Source: Flavobacterium sp. N1994 (GTDB lineage Bacteria; Bacteroidota; Bacteroidia; Flavobacteriales; Flavobacteriaceae). Taken from it: a stretch of 64,000 bases of DNA. Made by a program: the position numbers and the translations under genes. Location of the stretch: the NCBI RefSeq assembly GCF_025947145.1, contig NZ_CP109999.1, positions 2,232,001 through 2,296,000 on the forward strand, in the 5' to 3' direction. Shown here one piece after another: positions 35,949 through 38,779 of the stretch (position 1 is the first letter of the stretch; every line of letters begins with the position of its first letter). The notes below the pieces were generated by a model. The model had not been told where the DNA came from. It searched no databases and saw only the letters and a program-made list of their open reading frames with translations.

Positions 35949-36179
35949 TTAAGTTTCCTTAACGCTGATAATGTTTACAGGACAAGCTTTTACAGCCAAT
36001 TCACAATTTTCAACGATTGTATGGTCAGCCGATTTTAAAGTATAAAAACCTTTAGCATTGACCGATTTCAGCAATACTGATTTTCCATCTTTCTTCGACA
36101 TTTGAAATTGCCTTGGAGCCATTTCTACACAGTAATTACAGCCAATACATTTATCTCTTTGTAACGTAACAATGACCAT
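35949..36179 (-). CDS. Single-cluster 4Fe-4S ferredoxin
   Basis: A 76-residue electron carrier. Ligands are CIGCNYC at residues 11-17 and the C-terminal CP pair (Cys66-Pro67), which together hold one 4Fe-4S cluster; Cys59 is an extra. Its ATG follows the TrhP stop with no spacing, and TrhP in turn overlaps TrhO, so the ferredoxin is the third member of a very compact operon. TrhP-type proteins need Fe-S chemistry, so this ferredoxin is a reasonable electron or cluster partner; that is inference. Confidence 0.92.
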   Translation of the reverse strand: MVIVTLQRDKCIGCNYCVEMAPRQFQMSKKDGKSVLLKSVNAKGFYTLKSADHTIVENCELAVKACPVNIISVKET

Positions 36180-37421
36180 CTAGTTTTCTACAATTTTATA
36201 CATTTTGTCTGAAAGACGGATTCGGAAAGGCACTTTCAAGGTACAATTATCGCCTTTAGTAGCTTTTTCAGAATCTACGTCATTAACGAAGAGTTCTTCT
36301 AAAACCATTTCTTGAGCTCCAGTACTTGGTCCTGTGATTAAAATTTTATCGCCTTTTTTGATGTCGTAAGCTTCAATTTTGAATTCGGCAATACTGGCTT
36401 TTTGGAAATAGTGAACGCCCTTCCCAACATACACTTTCTTTTGAGTAGCACTCGAACCAGGATTGTCACTCCATTCGCCAAGTTTTTGCCCTAAATAATA
36501 ACCACTCCAAAAACCTCGATTGTAAACGGTAGACAAAGCCTCCATCCAAGTGTTGATTTTTTCTTTGGTAAATGTTCCTTCGTAGTAGGAGTCGATAGCA
36601 TCACGATAAGTTTTAATAACGGTTGCTACATAATCGGCAGCACGACCGCGACCTTCTATTTTCAAAACTTTAATTCCTGAATCGATAACTTGATCTAAAA
36701 AATCTAACGTGCATAAATCTTTGGGTGACATTAAATATTCGTTATCAACTTCTATTTCGAAACCACTTTCTTGGTCGATTACCGTATATTTTTTGCGACA
36801 GTTTTGCTTACACGCTCCTCGATTAGCAGAAGAATTATGCGAATGTAAACTCAAATAACATTTTCCTGAAACGGCCATACATAATGCACCATGACCAAAG
36901 ATTTCGATTTCAACTAAATTCCCACTAGGGCCTTTGTTTTGTTCTTTCTCAATAGCATCGGTGATTTTTTTCACTTGACGTAAACTCAACTCACGAGACA
37001 ATACGATGGTATCCGCAAACATGGCATAGAATTTTACTGTTTCGATGTTGGTTACATTCAATTGGGTTGAAATATGCACTTCTATCCCCATCGTTTTAGC
37101 AGTCATAATTACGGCTTGATCAGAAGCGATGACAGCTGTTATTCCAGCTTCTTTGGCTTTGCTCAAAAGTGTTTTTACAATCGACAAATCGTGGTCGTAA
37201 ATGATGGTATTTAATGTGAGATAGGTTCTAACCTTTTTTTCTTGGCATCTTCGAGCAATTTCAGGTAAATCGTCTAAAACAAAATTCACTGTGGCACGAG
37301 CGCGCATATTTAATTGTTCAACACCAAAATAAATGGAATCACAACCATTGTTTAAAGCGGCTTGCAATGATTCGAAATTTCCAGCCGGAGCCATAAGTTC
37401 AATTCTTCCTGAAGTTGTCAT
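36180..37421 (-). CDS. trhP: Peptidase U32 family protein, TrhP-like tRNA hydroxylation protein
   Basis: A 413-residue U32 protein. The N-terminal barrel begins IELMAPAGNFESLQAALNNG, the family cysteines occur in GALCMAVSGKCYLS and NRGACKQNCRKKY, and a C-terminal beta domain covers about 331-413. In E. coli and Bacillus the family members TrhP form 5-hydroxyuridine at tRNA position 34 using prephenate and Fe-S chemistry. Other U32 proteins act on 23S rRNA or ubiquinone, but the neighbouring TrhO supports tRNA. Its start overlaps the TrhO stop by one base (TAATG). Its C-terminal domain closely resembles that of TrhO next door. Confidence 0.88.
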   Translation of the reverse strand: MTTSGRIELMAPAGNFESLQAALNNGCDSIYFGVEQLNMRARATVNFVLDDLPEIARRCQEKKVRTYLTLNTIIYDHDLSIVKTLLSKAKEAGITAVIASDQAVIMTAKTMGIEVHISTQLNVTNIETVKFYAMFADTIVLSRELSLRQVKKITDAIEKEQNKGPSGNLVEIEIFGHGALCMAVSGKCYLSLHSHNSSANRGACKQNCRKKYTVIDQESGFEIEVDNEYLMSPKDLCTLDFLDQVIDSGIKVLKIEGRGRAADYVATVIKTYRDAIDSYYEGTFTKEKINTWMEALSTVYNRGFWSGYYLGQKLGEWSDNPGSSATQKKVYVGKGVHYFQKASIAEFKIEAYDIKKGDKILITGPSTGAQEMVLEELFVNDVDSEKATKGDNCTLKVPFRIRLSDKMYKIVEN

Positions 37422-38779
37422 TAGCTTATGATTTTGAATAATTTATCAGATAAACGAACTCTGAAAGGCACTTCAAAAGTTACTTTATCTCCAATTTTTG
37501 CTGAAGTATTTTCTTTTCCGTTTACCAACATTTTGTCTAAAACTAATTCCTCATTTCCAGTAGTTGGTCCCGAGATAAGTATTTTATCGCCAACATTTAA
37601 TTCTTGATTTTCGATGCTAAAAAGGCCAACACCAGCTTTAACAAAGTAATGCTCCACTTTACCAATCAAGACTTTTTTGATTTTTATCTTTTGACGAATG
37701 TCTTTTGTTTTTTGGGCTTTCGCCAAAGCATTGTCTGACAATTCACCGGAATGTTTGAATAACAATTTTTCAGATTTTCCTTTTCTAAAAACTTTATTGC
37801 CTACTTGTTTGCCGCTTCTTAATTTTACTTGTTCGGCCAATGGAAGATGTGTGATTTCTAAACATTCGGTTGAACAACAATTTTCCATGGCAGCTTTGCA
37901 GTCGTCACATTGAATAAACAACAAATGACAACCGTCGTTTAAGCAATTAGTATGATTATCACAAGGTTTTCCACATTGATGACATTGCGAAACGATATCA
38001 TCTGTAATTCTTTCACCAAGGCGATGATCGAAAACAAAATTTTTACCGATGAATTTGCTTTCTATATTTTCTTCCTTAATTTGTTTAGCATAATTGATAA
38101 TGCCCCCTTCTAACTGAAATACATTCTTGAATCCTTGGTGCTTGAAATATGCCGAGGCTTTCTCGCAACGAATACCTCCGGTGCAATACATGACCAAGTT
38201 TTTATCTTCTTTAAAGTCTTTTAATTGCTCGTTGATAATGGGCAAACTTTCTCTGAACGTCTCTACATCGGGAGTTATTGCGCCTTTGAAATGACCAATT
38301 TCACTTTCGTAATGATTTCTGAAATCAACAACGATTGTATTTGGGTCTTCTAAAATTTGGTTGAATTCTTTGGCTTTTAAATGCACACCAATATTGGTAA
38401 CATCAAAGGTTTCGTCATTCAATCCGTCGGCTACAATTTTGTCACGGACTTTAACGGTCAATTTTAAAAAGGAATGATCATCGTGTTCAACAGCAACATT
38501 TAGGCGGATGTTTTTCATGAAATCATAGGCTTCTAAAGTATCGCGAAACGCTTCCATGTTTTCGGCGGGGATACTCATTTGAGCATTGATTCCTTCTTTG
38601 GCAACATAGGTTCTACCAAGAGCATCAAGTTGGTTCCATTGGATAAATAAATCGTCGCGAAATTTTTTTGGGTCTTCAATTTTGGCATACGCATAGAAAG
38701 ACAAAGTAAGTCTTTGTTTGCCGGCTTGGTCAATCAGCTCGGCTCTTTCTTCTGCGCTTAAGGTGTTATACAGTTGCAT
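37421..38779 (-). CDS. trhO: Rhodanese-type tRNA hydroxylase TrhO with extra C-terminal domain
   Basis: A 452-residue protein of the YceA/UPF0176 family, whose E. coli member (about 350 residues) makes 5-hydroxyuridine at tRNA position 34 with O2. An N-terminal ferredoxin-like domain (about 25-120) precedes the rhodanese domain with catalytic loop CTGGIRCEKA (Cys199), then a Cys-rich segment (CHQCGKPC, CLNDGC, CDDC, CCSTEC; about 270-310). The last 80 residues (about 371-452) go beyond the usual family end and are about half identical to the C-terminus of the adjacent TrhP. The gene heads the operon with trhP and ferredoxin. Confidence 0.9.
   Translation of the reverse strand: MQLYNTLSAEERAELIDQAGKQRLTLSFYAYAKIEDPKKFRDDLFIQWNQLDALGRTYVAKEGINAQMSIPAENMEAFRDTLEAYDFMKNIRLNVAVEHDDHSFLKLTVKVRDKIVADGLNDETFDVTNIGVHLKAKEFNQILEDPNTIVVDFRNHYESEIGHFKGAITPDVETFRESLPIINEQLKDFKEDKNLVMYCTGGIRCEKASAYFKHQGFKNVFQLEGGIINYAKQIKEENIESKFIGKNFVFDHRLGERITDDIVSQCHQCGKPCDNHTNCLNDGCHLLFIQCDDCKAAMENCCSTECLEITHLPLAEQVKLRSGKQVGNKVFRKGKSEKLLFKHSGELSDNALAKAQKTKDIRQKIKIKKVLIGKVEHYFVKAGVGLFSIENQELNVGDKILISGPTTGNEELVLDKMLVNGKENTSAKIGDKVTFEVPFRVRLSDKLFKIIS

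Follow-up and report, generated by a model that had tools for sequence, protein, structure and literature searches.

The locus described here raises the question of why two enzymes of unrelated families, encoded side by side, should end in the same protein domain. It lies in a window of 64,000 nucleotides (by which we mean the whole stretch of DNA analysed) from Flavobacterium sp. N1994, RefSeq assembly GCF_025947145.1, contig NZ_CP109999.1, where trhO, encoding an oxygen-dependent tRNA uridine-34 (U34) hydroxylase, is followed by a trhP-like gene of the peptidase U32 family. Both genes are intact and overlap by one base (Table 1). TrhO exceeds the curated NCBIfam cut-off for this enzyme (NF001133, 265.6 bits against 170), and the Pfam domains UPF0176_N, Rhodanese and Rhodanese_C all score above their cut-offs, the last ending at residue 306. 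The CXGGXR active-site motif is present as CTGGIR, and O2-dependent hydroxylation of tRNA U34 is the predicted activity of the protein. Beyond this core, a linker whose block means in the predicted local distance difference test (pLDDT) are 55-71 over residues 321-370 of the full-length model leads to an additional C-terminal domain, hereafter the tail. A first-pass annotation, made from the DNA without database searches, had held that TrhO normally has about 350 residues, in agreement with the 343-359 residues encoded at the loci read from other Flavobacteriaceae genera and the 352 residues of the solved chain 9j5o.

The tail is homologous to the C-terminal domain of the TrhP-like neighbour. 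Residues 367-451 of TrhO and 327-411 of TrhP form a full ungapped match with 43 identities in 85 positions, while 2000 shuffles of one side gave a mean of 6.2 identities and a maximum of 15. BLASTP aligns the two proteins with an E value of 2e-26, and at E values up to 1 the TrhO tail matches nothing else in this genome except TrhP. The 40 identities in 82 ungapped positions counted by the first-pass annotation are exact, TrhO 371-452 pairing with TrhP 331-412 (the range 331-413 given there was one residue too long), and a U32-type tail does indeed sit on a rhodanese enzyme, as it had proposed. The DNA identity over the matched tails (156 of 255 positions) is lowest at third codon positions, from which it follows that the copy is old. 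Gene conversion between the tails was considered and none was seen: a TrhO tail stands at 51.3% to the TrhP tail of the same genome and at 50.8% to other Flavobacterium TrhP tails (n=23), and is thus no nearer to the former.

Structural modelling, which of the two tails covered that of TrhO, bears out the suggested domain type. The modelled tail is an all-beta barrel with the fold of the solved C-terminal domain of a putative U32 peptidase from Geobacillus thermoleovorans (PDB 4he5 and 4he6), although the identity is 22% and the host in that case is a U32 protein rather than a rhodanese enzyme. The barrel fold is shared with translation proteins (EF-Tu domain 2 and IF2 C2), and the barrels of IF2, eIF5B, EF1A and EF-Tu are the nearest fold relatives outside the U32 proteins. 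IF2 C2 and EF-Tu domain 2 contact the acceptor end of tRNA; unlike these factors TrhO has no GTPase, and contact of its tail with tRNA is putative. The profile search that had been proposed did not succeed, since neither protein of the window, nor any other in the genome, matched Peptidase_U32_C (PF16325). The window tails lie below the gathering cut-off of this family, which is matched weakly by 45 tails in a set of 98 related ones (best E 3.1e-4). A profile search of solved structures returned EF-Tu as its best hit (E 0.057) without reaching 4he5 or 4he6, and hhalign gave a weak match (probability 34) to the tail of Escherichia coli TrhP. Current Pfam models miss the tail domain here.

The distribution of tail-bearing TrhO is restricted. 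TrhO was found in 224 of 249 Flavobacteriaceae genomes representing 202 genera, where a query consisting of the tail alone matched 89 places in 87 genomes. Four of these are TrhO tails, two in Flavobacterium (G000 and G021) and two in genus g105 (G156 and G339); the other 85 lie in open frames that span 383-471 residues, and each belongs to a different one of the 85 genomes with a full TrhP. Among 150 Flavobacterium genomes TrhO is present in 143, and the match reaches the end of the tail in 140, the three exceptions being two contig ends (G391 and G458) and a gene fusion (G504). In a 118-genome sample of the phylum, tail-bearing TrhO is confined to Flavobacterium and two genomes from a second family of the order, the Weeksellaceae. 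A set of 100 Weeksellaceae genomes contains TrhO in 34 and the tail in 33 of these, and the carriers include Chryseobacterium, Epilithonimonas, Elizabethkingia and Kaistella (among the best 80 of at least 575 loci encoding relatives). The fusion in G504 (L075:1606-3936, on the minus strand) is a natural in-frame TrhO-TrhP protein of 776 residues, the sole one among the 150 Flavobacterium genomes; it lacks the TrhO tail and continues in frame into an entire TrhP with its own tail. No further TrhO-TrhP fusion was found among the 26 proteins over threshold when 8000 candidates were scored.

Phylogenetic analysis of the catalytic part of TrhO (113 rows) placed all tail-bearing proteins and the fusion in one clade with a support of 100. 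The Weeksellaceae rows nest inside Flavobacterium, with values of 81-96 along the path in the Shimodaira-Hasegawa-like approximate likelihood ratio test (SH-aLRT). In the tail tree (169 rows) the TrhO tails likewise form one clade, again with Weeksellaceae nested in Flavobacterium. The TrhP tree differs in that the TrhP proteins encoded beside tail-bearing trhO in Weeksellaceae cluster with those of other Weeksellaceae and of some Flavobacteriaceae and stay apart from the Flavobacterium ones, which argues that the tail-bearing trhO probably passed from Flavobacterium to some Weeksellaceae without its TrhP. Several Weeksellaceae genera (L093-L172, L241-L250) have a tail-bearing trhO that looks Flavobacterium-derived. 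These trees retain duplicate rows (three locus pairs are the same genes), which the locus counts and dN/dS values given below exclude, and both catalytic-part trees were made with a short search. A TrhP-like protein on a contig of a distant Bacteroidota genome (L091, G092) falls inside the Flavobacteriaceae TrhP, through either gene transfer or contamination.

The tail is retained independently of TrhP. A full TrhP is found in 59 of the 150 Flavobacterium genomes. Of the 124 good genomes in this genus (completeness of 90% or more, contamination of 5% or less) 121 have a complete tail, 56 with TrhP and 65 without it, and in the Weeksellaceae TrhP accompanies tail-bearing TrhO in 11 of 33 genomes. 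The ratio of non-synonymous to synonymous substitution rates (dN/dS) indicates purifying selection on the tail in either situation: in Flavobacterium it is 0.141 with adjacent trhP (13 pairs) and 0.091 without (6 pairs), and the corresponding Weeksellaceae values are 0.060 (18 pairs) and 0.077 (998 pairs), the pairs being non-independent and few in three of the four groups. The catalytic parts give 0.029-0.057 across groups. In three of the four groups residues 341-366 of the linker have a higher dN/dS than the tail, and in the fourth the two agree to within 0.001. Because it stays in place and constrained where TrhP is absent, the tail is maintained for the sake of TrhO itself.

We infer, with a probability of about one half, that the TrhP barrel was copied onto trhO in an ancestor of Flavobacterium and acts there in cis, most likely by holding tRNA. 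A copy of the C-terminal barrel of TrhP (U32_C) would have been joined in frame to the 3' end of trhO, the probable route being that the adjacent trhP was duplicated and the enzyme body of the duplicate then deleted; vertical descent would have carried the tail-bearing gene through Flavobacterium, with later transfer to some Weeksellaceae. Tethered to the rhodanese hydroxylase by a linker of about 45 residues, the barrel may grip the substrate tRNA away from the anticodon such that U34 reaches the CTGGIR site, and presumably does the same in TrhP. A tRNA-holding role in cis is favoured because U34 of tRNA is the presumed target of both hosts and the fold is that of the translation-factor barrels; fold and context together make tRNA binding by the tail plausible. 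More tentatively, the U32_C barrel may be a portable tRNA-recognition module that moved between non-homologous enzymes forming 5-hydroxyuridine at position 34 (ho5U34) and gave TrhO the tRNA recognition of TrhP.

Several observations weigh against this interpretation. The Pfam signals are weak, the TrhO tail of the window is itself without a match, and the unrelated family G5 matches 19 of the 98 related tails (best E 1.8e-4). A shared fold shows no function, and the mean net charge of the TrhO tails is near zero (+0.45, compared with +2.12 for TrhP tails), so that a strongly basic surface for RNA binding is not indicated. In most Flavobacteriaceae TrhO seems to suffice without a tail, TrhP being missing from 161 of the 220 tail-less genomes. 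As to origin, the best trees nest the TrhO tails within the TrhP tails, the branching that the first-pass annotation had proposed to look for, but the approximately unbiased (AU) test does not reject their placement outside all Flavobacteriales TrhP tails (p 0.097 with 66 rows and 0.45 with 50 rows). A grouping with the TrhP tails of Flavobacterium and g105 alone is also unrejected (p 0.265, 50-row tree). The 66 rows were drawn from the 169 evenly per group after six long or odd rows had been left out; for the 50-row tree seven loci were left out, five of 22 distant rows were used and no g105 TrhO tail was included. Flavobacterium TrhP tails are moreover slow-evolving, which alone could attract the TrhO tails. 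The earlier proposal that a U32 C-terminal domain was copied or captured is thus upheld as regards homology, fold and a single TrhO clade, but an origin within the TrhP tails is left unfixed by the AU tests.

The most serious competing explanation, though in our view an unlikely one, is that the tail serves TrhO in cis in a way that does not involve tRNA, through oligomerisation, stability or the docking of a partner other than TrhP or its ferredoxin, for example a translation factor or a methyltransferase acting on ho5U34. Conservation of the tail in cis without TrhP and its near-neutral charge would fit such a role, as would the single Methyltransf_3 protein of the genome, this being the Pfam family of TrmR; the domain is, however, also found on TrhP, and the common denominator of the two hosts is their presumed tRNA substrate. 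It is improbable that the tail came from a different U32 protein, such as the U32 paralogue of about 630 residues that other Flavobacterium genomes encode, or from a source further removed. The AU tests do leave the root of the TrhO tails unfixed, and while most paralogue matches end near TrhP residue 337, two (G365 and G411) reach residue 381. Set against this, the N1994 genome has no such paralogue and no match to the TrhO tail other than the TrhP tail (E up to 1), the matches to the tail query in the 249 Flavobacteriaceae genomes are all accounted for by TrhO tails and full TrhP, and the nearest TrhP tail is a Flavobacterium one for 59 of 78 TrhO tail rows (73 different).

Docking of TrhO to TrhP, or to the ferredoxin encoded beside it, in one complex would be one form of the partner binding that the first-pass annotation named beside tRNA binding, and would be in keeping with the adjacency of trhO and trhP (mostly overlapping or a few bases apart) and with the natural fusion in one genome. 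We reject it as the principal function, since the tail is retained where TrhP is missing, and we give it little credence in any form: the tail is similarly constrained in the many genomes lacking TrhP, no ferredoxin gene of this kind lies close by (the search covered the neighbourhood only), and in Weeksellaceae the TrhP adjoining tail-bearing TrhO lies outside the Flavobacterium group or is absent. It is highly unlikely that the tail is a functionless, neutral leftover of gene fusion. Its dN is about 2.6 to 3.2 times that of the catalytic part and relatives live without it, but a dN/dS of 0.06 to 0.14 in all four groups largely refutes neutrality, and the tail is complete in all Flavobacterium TrhO matches apart from the contig ends and the fusion noted above. 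The notion that the tail allowed TrhO to replace TrhP is likewise unsupported. TrhP is absent from a larger share of tail-less Flavobacteriaceae (161/220) than of tail-bearing Flavobacterium (65/121; Fisher p 3e-4, a guide only as genomes are non-independent), so that the tail is unneeded for such replacement.

Table 1. Features of the trhO-trhP locus, in window coordinates
Feature	Position	Strand	Basis
trhO, oxygen-dependent tRNA uridine-34 hydroxylase, 452 aa with extra C-terminal domain	37421..38779	-	NCBIfam NF001133 and Pfam
TrhO active-site loop CTGGIR, residues 199-204	38168..38185	-	Translation; motif named in PMC6599085
TrhO linker, residues 322-366	37682..37816	-	Low pLDDT; dN/dS above or equal to that of the tail
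TrhO extra C-terminal domain, residues 367-452, all-beta barrel	37424..37681	-	Homology and modelled fold
trhP-like U32 hydroxylase, 413 aa	36180..37421	-	Pfam Peptidase_U32; NCBIfam TrhP best match, below cut-off; distribution complementary to TrhO
Four-cysteine motif of U32 oxidases in TrhP, C181-X6-C188-X15-C204-X3-C208	36798..36881	-	Alignment; PMC11574389
TrhP C-terminal domain, residues 327-411, homologue of TrhO tail	36189..36443	-	43/85 identical, ungapped
4Fe-4S ferredoxin, 76 aa, 3' of trhP	35949..36179	-	Pfam Fer4_13

The neighbour scores 236 bits with Pfam Peptidase_U32. Its best NCBIfam match is TrhP, but at 195.4 bits this is below the curated cut-off of 534, hence the designation TrhP-like; where it aligns with E. 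coli TrhP, the identity is 27%. The CX6CX15CX3C motif, described for U32 oxidases (PMC11574389), is invariant in 23 aligned TrhP-like proteins. TrhP is carried by 24 of 25 Flavobacteriaceae genomes that lack TrhO (five of the 25 assigned by non-appearance in the match table) and by all 66 such Weeksellaceae genomes (in two of them in pieces), compared with 61 of 224 and 12 of 34 genomes with TrhO. The neighbour would make ho5U34 as TrhP does; the evidence is indirect, the distribution being that expected if TrhP covers genomes without TrhO. Any dependence on prephenate is putative. The exception with neither enzyme (G168) is a draft of 670 contigs with 8% contamination. At least one of TrhO and the TrhP-like protein is thus present in 248 of 249 Flavobacteriaceae and 100 of 100 Weeksellaceae genomes, and this near-universal presence suggests that U34 hydroxylation is hard to lose. 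In one Weeksellaceae genome without TrhO (G577; L276:1274-2517, plus strand) trhP is split into two overlapping frames by a frameshift or a sequencing error.

The ferredoxin gene follows TrhP, not the TrhO tail. Of the 67 different Flavobacteriales trhP loci read, 64 contain it, as do 9 of 22 from more distant lineages; none of the 101 tail-bearing trhO loci that lack trhP does, a count that covers the nearby region while the rest of those genomes is unsearched. Its product probably serves TrhP as an electron partner; the main text of PMC11574389, a review of U32 oxidases, nowhere uses the word ferredoxin. In 12 different Weeksellaceae loci a tail-bearing trhO lies upstream of a resident trhP-ferredoxin pair.

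TrhO of N1994 shares the UPF0176_N, Rhodanese and Rhodanese_C core and the CTGGIR loop with E. coli TrhO (YceA; Sakai et al. 2019, PMC6599085), but is about 100 residues longer, owing to the linker and a barrel domain unannotated by Pfam. The neighbour has Peptidase_U32, the C-terminal domain and the four-cysteine motif in common with the prephenate-dependent TrhP (YegQ) and with Bacillus subtilis TrhP1 and TrhP2 (PMC6599085), and differs from these in its sub-threshold score and attached ferredoxin gene. The same paper describes trhP as mainly gamma- and betaproteobacterial, and reports that E. coli TrhO binds tRNA-Ala1 but not tRNA-Leu3 and that its choice of tRNA differs from that of TrhP. 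The literature searched, in which subscription journals are mostly outside coverage, held no title or abstract describing a tail-bearing TrhO, and the available portions of PMC6599085 and PMC11574389 state no function for the C-terminal domain of U32 RNA hydroxylases. Two unrelated enzymes that make the same change to the wobble base by different chemistry have, in one lineage, an accessory domain common to both. This natural graft makes it possible to test cleanly what the C-terminal domain contributes in U32 RNA hydroxylases and what governs tRNA choice by TrhO.
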